Both the position numbers and the translations under genes were made by a program. This document shows positions 33,954-39,565 of a stretch of 43,185 bases of DNA, piece by piece. Source of the stretch: an uncultured Nitriliruptoraceae bacterium (GTDB taxonomy: Bacteria; Actinomycetota; Nitriliruptoria; Nitriliruptorales; Nitriliruptoraceae); the NCBI GenBank assembly GCA_913060655.1, contig CAJXTG010000012.1, forward strand, positions 1 to 43,185. Reading direction: 5' to 3'. Within the stretch, counting starts at the first letter, position 1, and each line of letters starts with the position of its first letter. A model generated the notes under the pieces. That model ran no database searches. It had not been told where the DNA came from and worked only from the letters and a program-made list of their open reading frames with translations.

Positions 33954-34715
33954 TCAGGCGCCGACGTCGATCGGGGTCGTGGGCGGCCCGTCGCGCAGCA
34001 GCCGGGCGAGCGCGTCGGGCAGCGCCGCGGGGGCGAGGGCGTCGTCGCCGCCGACCGCGCGCAGCTCGTCGACGGTGAACCACCGGGCCCCCGCGGTCGC
34101 GAGGTCGTCGAGGGGGATGGTGGTGACGTCGAGCCCCGGCACGCGGACGAGGAACCACCGTTCCCGCTGCCGCAGCCAGATCCCACGGAACGTGAACGTC
34201 GCCGTCCGCGACCACACCCACGGGCCCGGCGTCACCGCGAGGCCGACCTCCTCGGCGAGCTCACGTGCCGCCGCCTCCTCGTACGACTCGCCCGGGTCGA
34301 GCCCCCCGCCGGGCGCGGTCCACACCGTCCGCCCGCCGCCCGGCAGGTGCGCGACGAGCAGCACCCGGTCGTCCGCGTCGAGCACGAGCGCGCGGGCCGC
34401 CGCCCGCTCGATCGGGTCGTCGGCGCTCGCACCGTGCGCCTCGGCGTCGAGCCGCGGGTGCGCCGGCACGACCCTCGAGGCGACGACCTGCGCGGGGTCG
34501 ACGACGTGCAGCGTGCCGGCCCGGTCGACGACGATCCAGCCGTCGTCCGCGTGGGACAGCAGCCGGCCGACCCGGTCGGTCGGCCGCGGCCCGTCCCCGT
34601 CGTCGACGAGCATGCGGACGCTGACGCGCTGGCCGACGTGCTCGGCGGTGACCTCCCGCCGGTAGGTCGCGCGGGACGCGTCGACCGCCGGCCGTTGCCG
34701 TGGCGCGTCGCTCAT
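33954..34715 (-). CDS. Nudix hydrolase with N-terminal SH3-like domain
   Basis: A 253-residue two-domain protein. Residues about 20-85 (VGQRVSVRMLVDDG, TDRVGRLLSHADDGWIVVDRAGTLHVVDPAQVVASRVVP) resemble the small SH3-like domain at the N-terminus of actinobacterial GNAT proteins of the Rv0428c kind. Residues about 100-245 are a Nudix domain with a full Nudix box (GGGLDPGESYEEAAARELAEEVGL). Nudix enzymes hydrolyse nucleoside diphosphates linked to other groups. It lies 16 bases after the ppx/gppA stop as the fourth gene of the polyphosphate run. The domain pairing is unusual and the substrate unknown. Confidence 0.85.
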   Translation of the reverse strand: MSDAPRQRPAVDASRATYRREVTAEHVGQRVSVRMLVDDGDGPRPTDRVGRLLSHADDGWIVVDRAGTLHVVDPAQVVASRVVPAHPRLDAEAHGASADDPIERAAARALVLDADDRVLLVAHLPGGGRTVWTAPGGGLDPGESYEEAAARELAEEVGLAVTPGPWVWSRTATFTFRGIWLRQRERWFLVRVPGLDVTTIPLDDLATAGARWFTVDELRAVGGDDALAPAALPDALARLLRDGPPTTPIDVGA

Positions 34716-34731: not shown

Positions 34732-36273
34732 TCATGCGGCGTCCCGCACGCGGAGGCGCAGCGGCAGGGCGAAGCGCCGGTCGAACAGGGCGCTGCGGTC
34801 CTGCACGGCGCGGGCCGTCGGGGCGCTCGCCGGCGCGGACAGCTCGAGCTCGAGCCCGGCGCCGCTGCGGCGGGCGCCGAGCAGGGTCACCTGCTGGTCG
34901 TGGGTCGTGTCGAGCGCGTCGGCGACCTGCAGGAGGGCGAGCAGGTCGGTGGTGCGGGCCCGGCCGGTCGCGTCCAGCGCGGCGAACGGCGGGAACCGGC
35001 GGGAGATGCCGCGCGAGGGGTGGAAGCGCACCAGCGTGAGCAGCACCGCGAGCTCGTCGGGGTCGAAGCCGCGCAGCTCGGCGTGCTCCAGCAGGTAGGC
35101 GCCGTGCTCCTGCTGGCGGCGCAGCGCGAGGGCCGTGCCGATCGCGTGCAGCGACGCGGCGTGGCCGAGCAGCTCGCGGGCGTCGTCGTCGTGGCCGTGC
35201 ACGGCCGCCGTCGCGTCGAACAGCCGCCGGGCGGTCGCGGCGACGTGCGTCGGATGGGGGTCGTCGCCGCTGAAGGTGTGCTGCAGCCAGTCGACCTGCC
35301 GCTCGCGCAGCGTCCGGCCGGCGGGGACGAGCGTGCGGCCGAAGCGGTGCAGCAGCACCCCCTCGCGCAGCCCCCAGTCGCTGACGCGCACGTCCGGGCC
35401 GGCGAGGCGTTCGAGGGCGGTGCTGAGCACGAGCGCGGCGACGTGCAGGTGGTCGGCGCGGCGGGACTTCACGCCGGGCAGCTCCGCCCGGGCGTCGGTG
35501 CCGACGGCGGTCAGCGCGGCCGTCGCGTCCGCGAGCTCGTCACGGGCCAGCGGCGCCTGGTTGACCGTCGCGGGCAGCCAACGTCCGGCGCGCAGCGCGA
35601 CGAGCCGGGCGAGGGCGCGCACCGTCCCGCCGACGGCGACGGCGGTCGCCGGGGCGTGGGAGCGAACGACGTCGACGGCGGGTGCGAGCGTGTCGTGCAC
35701 GTGGGTGCGCAGGCGCTCGAGGTCGGCGGCGGGCACGAGGCCGGCGACAGGCCCGTCCGGCCCCTCCGCGTCGCCCACCATCGCGCTCAGCCGGCTCGCC
35801 CCCAGCGGCAGCGACGTCGCCCACAGGATGCGTTCCCCGCTGCCGACGGCGAGCTCCAGCGAGCCGCCGCCGAGGTCGAGCACGAGCGTCGGCTCGTCGG
35901 CGACGTCGACGCCGGCGCGGGCGCCGAGGTAGGCGAGCCGGGCCTCCTCCTCGCCGTCGAGCAGCTCCAGCGGCGTCCCGGCCGCGTCCGACAGGCGGGC
36001 GACGAGGTCGCCGGCGCCGGGGGCGCGCAGCGCCTCGGTGCCGACGGCGACGACGGTCTCCGCGCCCGAGCGCCGTGCGAGCTCCGCGAGCCGCTCGACC
36101 GTCGCGACCGCGCGCACCGCGAGGTCGACGGGGACGGTGCCGTGGTGGGCGACCGCCCGGCCGAGGTGGAGCATCTCCCGCTGGCGGCGCACCGGGTGGA
36201 CGGTGCTGCCGTCGACGTCGGCGACGAGCAGGTGGAACGAGTTGCTGCCGAGGTCGAGGACGGCGGCGCGCAT
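34732..36273 (-). CDS. Exopolyphosphatase / pppGpp phosphatase (Ppx/GppA family)
   Basis: A 513-residue actin-fold phosphatase that releases phosphate from polyphosphate ends or converts pppGpp to ppGpp. Family motifs: LDLGSNSFHLLVADV at 6-20, EALRAPGAG, LDGEEEARLAYLGA with the catalytic glutamate, and LVLDLGGGSLELAVG for the second phosphate loop. The C-terminal HD-like helical domain (about 320-440) has LLGHAASLHAIG and YLLEHAELRGF. Length matches two-domain Ppx. The ATG shares one base with the preceding Nudix stop (TGATG). Next to ppk, a polyphosphate role is favoured; GppA activity cannot be excluded. Confidence 0.9.
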   Translation of the reverse strand: MRAAVLDLGSNSFHLLVADVDGSTVHPVRRQREMLHLGRAVAHHGTVPVDLAVRAVATVERLAELARRSGAETVVAVGTEALRAPGAGDLVARLSDAAGTPLELLDGEEEARLAYLGARAGVDVADEPTLVLDLGGGSLELAVGSGERILWATSLPLGASRLSAMVGDAEGPDGPVAGLVPAADLERLRTHVHDTLAPAVDVVRSHAPATAVAVGGTVRALARLVALRAGRWLPATVNQAPLARDELADATAALTAVGTDARAELPGVKSRRADHLHVAALVLSTALERLAGPDVRVSDWGLREGVLLHRFGRTLVPAGRTLRERQVDWLQHTFSGDDPHPTHVAATARRLFDATAAVHGHDDDARELLGHAASLHAIGTALALRRQQEHGAYLLEHAELRGFDPDELAVLLTLVRFHPSRGISRRFPPFAALDATGRARTTDLLALLQVADALDTTHDQQVTLLGARRSGAGLELELSAPASAPTARAVQDRSALFDRRFALPLRLRVRDAA

Positions 36274-36743
36274 CAGACGGTCCCGAGCACGCGGGCGAGC
36301 AGCGTCCGCTCGCCGGCGTGGGTCAGGTCGCGCAGCGCGTCGTCGACGGGCCACCAGGCGGCCCGGTCGACCTCGTCGTCGGGCGGGCGGGCCGCCGGGT
36401 CGGCCGCGTCGGCCGCCGGCCGCATCACGAACCAGTGGACCTCCTTGTGGGCGGGCGCACCGGCGTGCAGCAGCGCGTGGGCGGTCGTGCCGGCCCCGTC
36501 GACGACGGCCGCGTCGACGCCGGTCTCCTCGGCGACCTCGCGCCGGGCGGTGGCGGCGAACGTCTCGCCCGGGTCGACGTGCCCCTTCGGCAGCGACCAG
36601 TCGTCGTAGGCGGGGCGGTGGACGACGAGCACCCGGGTGTCCGCGCCGGTGCCGTCGAGCACGACCCCACCCGCCGCGACGAGCGTCGCCGACGGGGACG
36701 GCCCGGGCGACGCAGGGTCGGTGCCGTGCTCGCCCGCGCTCAT
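36273..36743 (-). CDS. Nudix hydrolase (MutT-like), between ppk and ppx
   Basis: A 156-residue single Nudix domain with the box GHVDPGETFAATARREVAEETGV and the preceding YDDWSLPKGH. Mycobacterial MutT1, also encoded beside ppk, shares the WSLPKGH type of start but carries an extra histidine-phosphatase domain that this protein lacks. MutT1 acts on 8-oxo-GTP and diadenosine polyphosphates. By context this enzyme could act on Ap4A-like or related polyphosphate-linked nucleotides. The ATG overlaps the ppk stop by four bases (ATGA). Confidence 0.88.
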   Translation of the reverse strand: MSAGEHGTDPASPGPSPSATLVAAGGVVLDGTGADTRVLVVHRPAYDDWSLPKGHVDPGETFAATARREVAEETGVDAAVVDGAGTTAHALLHAGAPAHKEVHWFVMRPAADAADPAARPPDDEVDRAAWWPVDDALRDLTHAGERTLLARVLGTV

Positions 36744-39079
36744 GCCCGCAGCGTAGGTCGCTCGCTCCGTCGCCTGGCGCGTTCCTGCAGGGTCGCGTGC
36801 GTCTCGAGGCCGACCATGGGGGTGACGCGACGCCAGACGCTGTCGGCACCCAGCTCCCACGCGAGCAGGTCGTCGGTGCGGGCGACGTCGAGGATCTCGT
36901 CGAGCCGGGCGGCGAGCCGTGGGTCGTCGACCGGGGCGAGCGCCTCGACGCGCCGGTCCAGGTTGCGCGGCATCAGGTCGCCGGAGCCGATGAGCCGCTC
37001 GACGCCGCGCGCGTCGCTGCCGAAGCGGTAGATGCGCGAGTGCTCGAGGTAGCGGCCGACGACGGAACGCACCGTGATCGTCTCGGACAGGCCGGGCACA
37101 CCCGGGCGCAGCGCGCAGATGCCGCGGATGAACAGCTCGACGCGGGTGCCGCGCTGCGACGCGTCGTACAGCGCGTCGATCATCGCCGGGTCGACCAGCG
37201 CGTTCGCCTTGATGACGATGTGGCCGTCGTCGGCGGCGGCCTCGCGGGCGATCAGCTCGGCGATGCGCGGCCGGAACCGCTCGGGGGCGACGACGAGCCG
37301 CCGGTAGCGGGGCTGGCGGGCGTAGCCGGTGAGGACGTTGAACAGGTCGGACAGGTCCGCCCCGAGGGCCTCGTCGCTGCTGAGCAGCCCGAGGTCCTCG
37401 TAGATGCGTGCGGTCTGGTCGTTGTAGTTGCCGGTGCCGACGTGGACGTAGCGGCGGACCGTGCCGCCCTCCCGACGCACGACCAGCGCGATCTTCGTGT
37501 GCGTCTTCAGCCCGACGACGCCGTAGGCGACGTGGACGCCGGCCTCCTCCAGCGCGCGCGCCCACACGATGTTCGCCTCCTCGTCGAACCGGGCCTTGAG
37601 CTCGACGAGCGCGACGACCTGCTTGCCGGCCTCGGCGGCGTCGAGCAGCGCCCGGATGATGGGGCTGCCGGGGCCGGAGGTGCGGTAGAGGGTGATCTTG
37701 ATGGCGAGCACGTCGGGGTCGTCGGCGGCCTGCTCGACGAACGCCTGCACCGACGTCGCGAACGCGTCGTAGGGATGGTGGACGAGCACGTCCCGTTCGC
37801 GCAGCACGCCGAACAGGTCGACCTCCTCCCCGGGGGCCCCGGCGAGCTCGGGGCTGGTGATCGGCGTCATCGTCGGACGCTTCAGGTCGGGCCGCTCCAG
37901 GTCGGTGAGGACCATCAGCCCGTTGAGCCCGAGCGGTGCGGGCAGCACGTGCACGTCACGTTCGGTCAGCTCGAGCTCCCGCATCAGCAGGTCGCGGACC
38001 TCGGCGGACATCGCCGGTTCGACCTCGAGGCGCACCGCACGGCCGAAGCGGCGCCGGTTCAGCTCCGACTCGATGGCGAGCAGCAGGTCGTCGGCCTCCT
38101 CCTCCTCGACCTCGAAGTCGGCGTTGCGGGTGACGCGGAACGTGTGGTGGTCGAGCACGTCGACACCGGGGAACAGCCGGTCGAGGCGGGCGGCGACGAG
38201 CGACTCGAGGGTGACGAACCGGTGGTGGCCCGCCGGCGCGGGGACGGGCACCAGCCGGGGGAGCACCGGCGGGATCTTCACGCGGGCGAACCGCTCGTCG
38301 CCGTCGGCGTCCCGCAGCCGGACCGCCAGGTTGAGCGACAGGTTGGAGATGTAGGGGAACGGGTGGGCGGGGTCGACCGCGAGCGGCGTCAGCACGGGGA
38401 AGACGAGGTCGTCGAACACCCGGTCGAGGTGGGCGCGCTGCTCGGCGGTCGTCTCGCGGTCGTCGAGGATGGCCACCCCCTCGTCCTCGAGCTCCCGGAG
38501 CAGGACGCTGTGCACGAGCAGCGCCTGCCGCTGCGTCAGCTCGCGCACGAGCGTGTCGATGGCGTCGAGCTGGGTCGCCGGGTCGATGCCGTCGGCGTTG
38601 GTGCCGGTCACGTCCGCGTCGACCTGCTCGTGGAGGCCGGCGACACGCACCTGGAAGAACTCGTCGAGGTTCGACGTGAAGATCGCGACGAACTTGATGC
38701 GCTCGAGCAGCGGCAGCGTCGCGTCCTCGGCGACGGCGAGCACCCGCTCGTTGAACTGCAGCCACGACAGCTCGCGGTTCAGGTAGCGGGGCCCGTCCCC
38801 GCCGGACGTCGTCCCGCCGGACGTCGTCCCGCCCGCGACGTGCCCTGTGGTGTGCCCCGCGGTATGCCAGGGGAGGATGTCGAGCGTGTGGGGCCGCCGG
38901 TCCGGCGCCCCGGGCGGCACCGTGCCGGGCACGACGGGGGAGGTCGCGGGGGTCGGCGGGGCGTCCGCGTCGTCACCGCGCGGGACGGTGCGGGGCATGC
39001 GGGCACCCTCGGCGCGGGCACGCAGCCACGTCCAGCGCGCCGGGCGCCGTCCTCGGCGCTCCTGGCCCGTCGGGTCCAC
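36740..39079 (-). CDS. ppk: Polyphosphate kinase
   Basis: This 779-residue PPK1 polymerises the gamma-phosphate of ATP into polyphosphate. The N-domain starts near residue 98 with YLNRELSWLQFNERVL and SNLDEFFQVR. The catalytic lobes carry VALVELKARFDEEANI, GLKTHTKIALVVRRE with the phosphorylated histidine, RYVHVGTGNYND, and SSDEALGADLSDLFN. About 97 residues precede the N-domain and are low-complexity (Thr/Gly/Pro, duplicated TTSGG, HTAGHTTGH). The chosen GTG (39077-39079) has AGGGAGG five bases upstream; an ATG at 38998 with a weaker site is the alternative. It leads a four-gene run behind a PHO-box-like promoter. Confidence 0.95.
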   Translation of the reverse strand: MDPTGQERRGRRPARWTWLRARAEGARMPRTVPRGDDADAPPTPATSPVVPGTVPPGAPDRRPHTLDILPWHTAGHTTGHVAGGTTSGGTTSGGDGPRYLNRELSWLQFNERVLAVAEDATLPLLERIKFVAIFTSNLDEFFQVRVAGLHEQVDADVTGTNADGIDPATQLDAIDTLVRELTQRQALLVHSVLLRELEDEGVAILDDRETTAEQRAHLDRVFDDLVFPVLTPLAVDPAHPFPYISNLSLNLAVRLRDADGDERFARVKIPPVLPRLVPVPAPAGHHRFVTLESLVAARLDRLFPGVDVLDHHTFRVTRNADFEVEEEEADDLLLAIESELNRRRFGRAVRLEVEPAMSAEVRDLLMRELELTERDVHVLPAPLGLNGLMVLTDLERPDLKRPTMTPITSPELAGAPGEEVDLFGVLRERDVLVHHPYDAFATSVQAFVEQAADDPDVLAIKITLYRTSGPGSPIIRALLDAAEAGKQVVALVELKARFDEEANIVWARALEEAGVHVAYGVVGLKTHTKIALVVRREGGTVRRYVHVGTGNYNDQTARIYEDLGLLSSDEALGADLSDLFNVLTGYARQPRYRRLVVAPERFRPRIAELIAREAAADDGHIVIKANALVDPAMIDALYDASQRGTRVELFIRGICALRPGVPGLSETITVRSVVGRYLEHSRIYRFGSDARGVERLIGSGDLMPRNLDRRVEALAPVDDPRLAARLDEILDVARTDDLLAWELGADSVWRRVTPMVGLETHATLQERARRRSERPTLRA

Positions 39080-39107
39080 CGTCCCCTCCCTGTCGGTGAC
39101 GGGCGGC

Positions 39108-39140
39108 ACGGTACGACGGCTCGCTGAACGCAGGATGAAC
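39108..39140 (-). promoter_or_regulatory. ppk promoter with PHO-box-like direct repeats
   Basis: On the minus strand two adjacent 11-base units read GTTCATCCTGC (39130-39140) and GTTCAGCGAGC (39119-39129). Both begin with GTTCA, the core of the actinobacterial PhoP direct-repeat units. A weaker third unit (CGTCAGCCGCC) lies at 39141-39151. A TACCGT -10-like box follows at 39108-39113, placing the repeats over the -35 region as expected for activation. Transcription would start near 39101, with the ppk GTG at 39079. Confidence 0.55.
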
Positions 39141-39186
39141 GGCGGCTGACGGGACGGGCCGGCCGCGCACCGCCGGTGCGCACCGC

Positions 39187-39192
39187 TATCAT
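39187..39192 (+). promoter_or_regulatory. Putative -10 box of the ferredoxin gene (TATCAT)
   Basis: TATCAT lies 50 bases before the ferredoxin ATG and is the most AT-rich hexamer in the gap. It would give a leader of about 43 bases that includes GAGGAG. Confidence 0.4.
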
Positions 39193-39241
39193 CCCCGCCG
39201 CGCTGCAGCGGACCGATCCGGACCGAGCCGAGGAGACGGGC

Positions 39242-39565
<324 letters not shown>

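Follow-up and report, generated by a model that had tools for sequence, protein, structure and literature searches.

A putative PHO box of the streptomycete type before the polyphosphate kinase operon of a Nitriliruptoraceae bacterium

The window, a stretch of 43,185 nucleotides from an uncultured Nitriliruptoraceae bacterium, carries on its minus strand a polyphosphate gene cluster led by ppk and, diverging from it across one intergenic region, the ferredoxin gene fdxA. Because ppk, a Nudix gene, ppx and a second Nudix gene overlap or are 16 nt apart, the wording "whole polyphosphate operon" used by the sequence-only reading of this DNA is reasonable. The features of the locus are:

33954..34715, minus strand: second Nudix protein, separated from ppx by 16 nt; by its spacing probably the last gene of the ppk operon
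34732..36273, minus strand: ppx/gppA-type exopolyphosphatase (TIGR03706, E=2.6e-59, below the cut-off), its start overlapping the Nudix stop
36273..36743, minus strand: Nudix hydrolase (MutT1-like), its start overlapping the ppk stop
36740..39079, minus strand: ppk, polyphosphate kinase 1 (TIGR03705, 787.5 bits, above the cut-off, over 36740-38998)
39083..39090, minus strand: likely Shine-Dalgarno sequence GGGAGGGG before the ppk GTG, judged from sequence and spacing
39108..39113, minus strand: -10-like hexamer TACCGT, which begins 16 nt from where the second GTTCA begins, behind the 5-nt spacer CGTCG
39119..39140, minus strand: PHO box core of two adjoining 11-nt direct repeat units, GTTCATCCTGC (39140-39130) and GTTCAGCGAGC (39129-39119)
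39141..39151, minus strand: weak third unit CGTCAGCCGCC, with 3 of 5 core letters and TCA in phase
39242..39565, plus strand: fdxA ferredoxin (NF045480, 170 bits, above the cut-off), a divergent neighbour that is not assigned to the box

The start of ppk is likely the GTG at 39079, in view of the Shine-Dalgarno sequence and a short leader of about 20 nt.

Read directly, positions 39151 to 39108 of the minus strand run CGTCAGCCGCC / GTTCATCCTGC / GTTCAGCGAGC / CGTCG / TACCGT. Two adjoining GTTCA units and a weaker third with TCA in phase had been proposed to precede ppk, and they do so to the base, with exact coordinates. Actinobacterial PHO boxes consist of at least two adjoining 11-nt repeats with a GTTCA core, and two perfect cores of this kind are present at 39140-39119. 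The units begin with GTTCATC and GTTCAGC, each identical in 6 of 7 letters to the GTTCACC core of Streptomyces coelicolor. In G002 and G003, two genomes of the same genus, the third-unit place holds CTTCCCCGATC and CGCACCGGTCC, respectively, and since it is thus not conserved the weak third unit is probably not essential.

The full 22-letter ppk pair has a single exact copy in a search of the genome, and in 20,000 shuffles of the stretch 39080-39241 that keep its dinucleotide composition the perfect pattern GTTCAN6GTTCA was found on neither strand. Genome-wide there are 3 perfect pairs, and the empirical frequency of GTTCA predicts about 1.8. This is no enrichment, and the count was rejected as functional proof. 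By gene calls and protein scan, each of the three is upstream of a gene or between two genes, namely before ppk, at the phoU end beside a low-molecular-weight (LMW) phosphatase (ArsC-like) gene, and before a MIP channel gene. Scans that allow one mismatch in the pair are noisy, with 23 matches in the window's own genome (G000), mostly within coding frames by crude gene calls, and 31 in G002 against 12 for the reversed pattern. As the pair count alone proves nothing, the case for the ppk box is carried by position and conservation.

Conservation was examined in G000 and in three other genomes of the same genus, G001 (78% complete), G002 and G003. No ppk match was found in G001; in both others the perfect pair is present before ppk, again 16 nt from the -10. 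Conservation at orthologous promoters therefore extends to 3/3 genomes of the genus with a ppk match and is patchy beyond it. The four genomes together hold eight perfect pairs: at ppk in G000, G002 and G003, on the phoU side in all four, and at the MIP gene in G000, so that 7/8 occupy two orthologous places. When a TAnnnT hexamer 16 nt from the start of the second unit is required as well, the three ppk promoters are the only matches without mismatch in these genomes, and at two mismatches or fewer there are 8 matches against 1 for the reversed control. Between species of the genus the ppk box is 73-77% identical, as against 28-42% for its flanks.

For the wider comparison, upstream regions were scored by mismatches, out of 13, to the motif plus -10; this score took the place of a Streptomyces weight matrix. 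The ppk upstreams, placed by tblastn, comprise 43 of 59 ppk matches, own included, with second copies, fragments and G053 set aside. Eleven of the 43 score two or fewer and 15 score three or fewer, against 0/43 at three or fewer in each of two controls; the remaining 28 score four or worse. Three of the eleven are the genus itself, which leaves 8/40 ppk upstreams outside it within two mismatches. Good boxes are found mostly in the window's family, plus G056 and G057 of one other genus. Background-level scores were obtained for named ppk loci beyond these relatives, most of them from Acidimicrobiia (79 of 80 named loci covered; L131 lacks upstream DNA). Of the named loci, L099, L101 and L119 reach two mismatches or fewer; to judge by their box sequence, which is identical for L119, they represent or seem to represent genomes already counted among the relatives (G032, G003 and G056). 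Only two zero scores stand out among the named loci, because the other-strand control also gave two at this threshold. On these sequence comparisons, predicted PhoP control of ppk is real but patchy across the relatives.

The distance from box to -10 follows an 11-nt ladder. Pairs were picked solely on their cores, after which the 66 nt that follow were searched for every TAnnnT. Among 46 pairs, 8 of them with no hexamer, 38/39 downstream hexamers lie at 16, 27, 38 or 49 nt, in genomes that are related and not independent. A fixed helical phase to the -10 is thus found, of the form 16+11n. The ppk promoters take the lowest rung, all 8/8 upstreams with a pair at one mismatch or fewer (own included) having the -10 at 16 nt. 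At pstS it lies at 38 nt (17 of 25 loci with a pair) or 49 nt (2), and at phoU-side boxes at 27 or 38 nt. A TTGACA-like -35 at 17 nt is found in none of the 8 ppk promoters, where 1-3 of 6 letters agree (background, taking the best of four spacings, averages 2.4-2.5), as is expected of activator-dependent promoters. The earlier proposal that the units overlie the -35 region of a TACCGT promoter agrees with this arrangement, in which TACCGT follows 16 nt from the start of the second unit. Boxes of the Escherichia coli regulator PhoB replace the -35 and lie about 10 nt before the -10. Their core is CTGTCAT, not GTTCA. Tandem 11-nt units are common to both (excerpt of PMC4415409). The ladder agrees with the simple and complex operators that the same excerpt describes for S. 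coelicolor. From its lowest rung, ppk could have an activation threshold unlike that of pstS. The different rungs of the two genes allow a comparative approach to the way in which PhoP operators might order gene induction.

A candidate regulator for such boxes is encoded in the genome. Contig C2 carries phoU, phoP-phoR (with a PhoR/PnpS-like kinase) and pstBACS together, so that the PhoRP system whose absence had been set beforehand as a refutation is found. The best match of PhoP among solved structures is RegX3 of Mycobacterium tuberculosis (E=1.1e-79), and its recognition helix is near-identical to that of RegX3 (GDTKTLDVHIRRLRGRIE versus GDTKTLDVHVKRLRSKIE). In NCBIfam the scores for MtrA, YycF and PhoB are similar and all below cut-off, MtrA being slightly above PhoB, and the name PhoP consequently rests on synteny and on RegX3. 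The OmpR-type (Trans_reg_C) regulators of the genome number only four. The comparison with the mycobacterial SenX3-RegX3 system covers the regulator, recognition helix included. The pst genes of the same contig have a larger operator:

L014:14630-14576, minus strand: four-unit PHO box before pstS, reading GTTCACCTCCC GTTCTCCTTCG GAGCCGAGGTG GTTCACCCCCC CTGCC TACGGT

Its TACGGT lies 38 nt after the second unit and 16 nt from the last. In a set of 30 pstS loci, one per genome, out of 52 genomes matched (own and genus included; -10 allowed at 16, 27 or 38 nt), 28/30 upstreams score two or fewer of 13 mismatches against 0/30 in each of two controls. Enrichment of the PHO code at phosphate genes, for which a weight matrix had been suggested, is thus seen with the mismatch score. 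In the 45-nt gap between phoU and phoP no PHO box was found, by eye or in the scan at two mismatches or fewer. With PhoRP present and GTTCA boxes at both pstS and ppk, the proposed conservation of the PhoP code in this lineage is supported.

The second orthologous place of the perfect pairs is on the phoU side of this cluster:

L014:7810-7842, plus strand: phoU-side PHO-box promoter on contig C2 of G000
L212:1335 (G002), L202:2211 (G001) and L217:3031 (G003): phoU-side PHO box in the other genus members
L014:7320-7745, minus strand (also L015, L227, L225): ArsC-like LMW phosphatase gene between purN and phoU in G000, G001 and G002

In G003 the box precedes a second phoU (phoU2), which lies tail to tail with phoU1, and boxes are also present in phoU loci of other family members. 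G000, G001 and G002 lack phoU2 here but keep the perfect pair and a -10 at the 27-nt phase, which point into the 3' end of phoU1. The phoU search gave a single match in each of G000 and G002 and, in G001, an additional weak match at another place. The ArsC-like gene lies beyond the leftover promoter in G000-G002 and is not beside the box in G003. The box itself is 77-95% identical, against 21-41% for its flanks. PhoP activates phoU in Streptomyces, a negative feedback (excerpt of PMC12096830). We tentatively suggest, as a rather doubtful possibility, that one feedback of the phosphate circuit has been inverted in the genus, the leftover promoter making antisense phoU1 RNA under starvation, perhaps reaching into phoPR, and ppk on its lowest rung responding at another threshold. 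If true, a promoter that formerly drove a brake would now act against the remaining brake, phoU1. The excerpt of PMC12096830 describes no antisense phoU promoter of this sort.

Further candidate sites and one side observation are recorded here:

L017:1501-1560, plus strand: perfect PHO box preceding the gene of a MIP-family channel (PF00230); TAGCGT follows at 38 nt and is 7 nt ahead of an ATG
L033:1501-1522, plus strand: one-mismatch PHO box before an ArsR-like/LMW-phosphatase domain fusion, divergent from a PhoH-PIN gene
L037:1501-1516, minus strand: one-mismatch PHO box before the gene of a phosphonate-binding-type protein
L011:2403-3038, plus strand: predicted protein with a terminal run of about 30 aspartates, adjoining a two-component system

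From its promoter sequence the MIP channel gene looks like a leaderless PhoP target, and a relation of the channel to arsenic or glycerol is a guess. The perfect pair at this gene was found in none of the other three genomes of the genus.

The closest known counterparts are the PHO boxes of Streptomyces, which share the 11-nt direct repeats, the GTTCA core, the positions at pstS and ppk and the PhoRP-PhoU-Pst system (excerpts of PMC4415409 and PMC7866108). The pstS units of S. coelicolor are gttcacccggc and gttcatttacg (excerpt of PMC3004843). The present genome differs in belonging to another class (its closest named relatives are Nitriliruptoraceae MAGs), in having ppk, Nudix and ppx in one operon, in that no box was found in the phoU-phoP gap, and in that the ppk of most relatives has no box. 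The sequence-only reading had called ppk a known PhoP target in streptomycetes. This is too strong, since the literature is mixed on the sign of ppk control. PHO boxes at ppk are reported for S. coelicolor and S. tsukubaensis (excerpt of PMC7866108); according to the excerpt of PMC3004843, PhoP control of ppk is only indirect in S. lividans, the S. coelicolor gene is under neither PhoP nor Pi control, and ppk of Amycolatopsis is lower in low phosphate. In Microbispora ppk is up in low phosphate (excerpt of PMC4203916). Both of the latter genera share with the present genome direct repeats before ppk in high-GC actinobacterial DNA, and an Amycolatopsis extract gave a band shift; their ppk expression responses are opposite.

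A PhoP that binds the box and represses ppk, its operator over the -35 blocking polymerase so that less polyphosphate is made under scarce phosphate, is unlikely. The Amycolatopsis ppk, down-regulated with a PHO box, would be a precedent, and a box over the -35 is termed a repressor position in the excerpt of PMC7244524. However, the ppk promoter offers no -35 for polymerase to use unaided, the final repeat of the pstS operator, at a promoter expected to be activated, has the same 16-nt geometry, and the operon includes ppx, with which induction in starvation would be sensible for mobilising polyphosphate. Ownership of the site by another OmpR-type regulator that reads related repeats, of the MtrA or GlnR type, is very improbable. 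By the title of a paper, some Streptomyces promoters see competition between GlnR and PhoP, and the regulator of the pst cluster itself leans slightly to MtrA over PhoB, but the other three Trans_reg_C proteins are below the MtrA cut-off, no GlnR family is among the matches listed, and the same box stands at pstS in 28/30 loci.

It is slightly less probable still that the box serves mainly fdxA, which starts at 39242 on the opposite strand of the same intergenic region. The orientation of the units and the in-phase -10 point to ppk, and in the relatives L059, L061, L184 and L187 an fdxA-like sequence adjoins, by eye, a ppk that has no good box. A chance match in a GC-rich genome has a negligible probability: about 1.8 perfect pairs are expected for a genome of this size and 3 were seen, but the shuffles of the intergenic stretch, the orthologous places of seven of the eight pairs and the constant 16-nt phase before ppk all argue against it.

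Activation is preferred to these alternatives, and we put at roughly 80% the probability that the repeats are a genuine PhoP operator activating the ppk operon under scarce phosphate, a reading in which attachment of PhoP, its activating effect and the length of the transcript are deduced from the DNA. PhoR would phosphorylate the RegX3-like PhoP when phosphate is scarce, and PhoP~P would bind both GTTCA units in head-to-tail fashion. The operator lies over the -35 place, a position from which PhoP may be expected to recruit RNA polymerase to a promoter with no usable -35. Transcription of ppk would then be switched on, followed by Nudix, ppx and the second Nudix gene through presumed read-through. 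The sequence-only interpretation is in this sense supported, PhoP binding and phosphate induction being predictions.

The arrangement appears to be a known kind of switch from Streptomyces, traced into a distant actinobacterial class. The papers listed for Nitriliruptor with PhoP concern, by their titles, sirtuins and metal tolerance. Use of the GTTCA PHO code of streptomycetes is indicated in a distant and poorly studied class, where polyphosphate metabolism would be joined to that code in some lineages and not in others.
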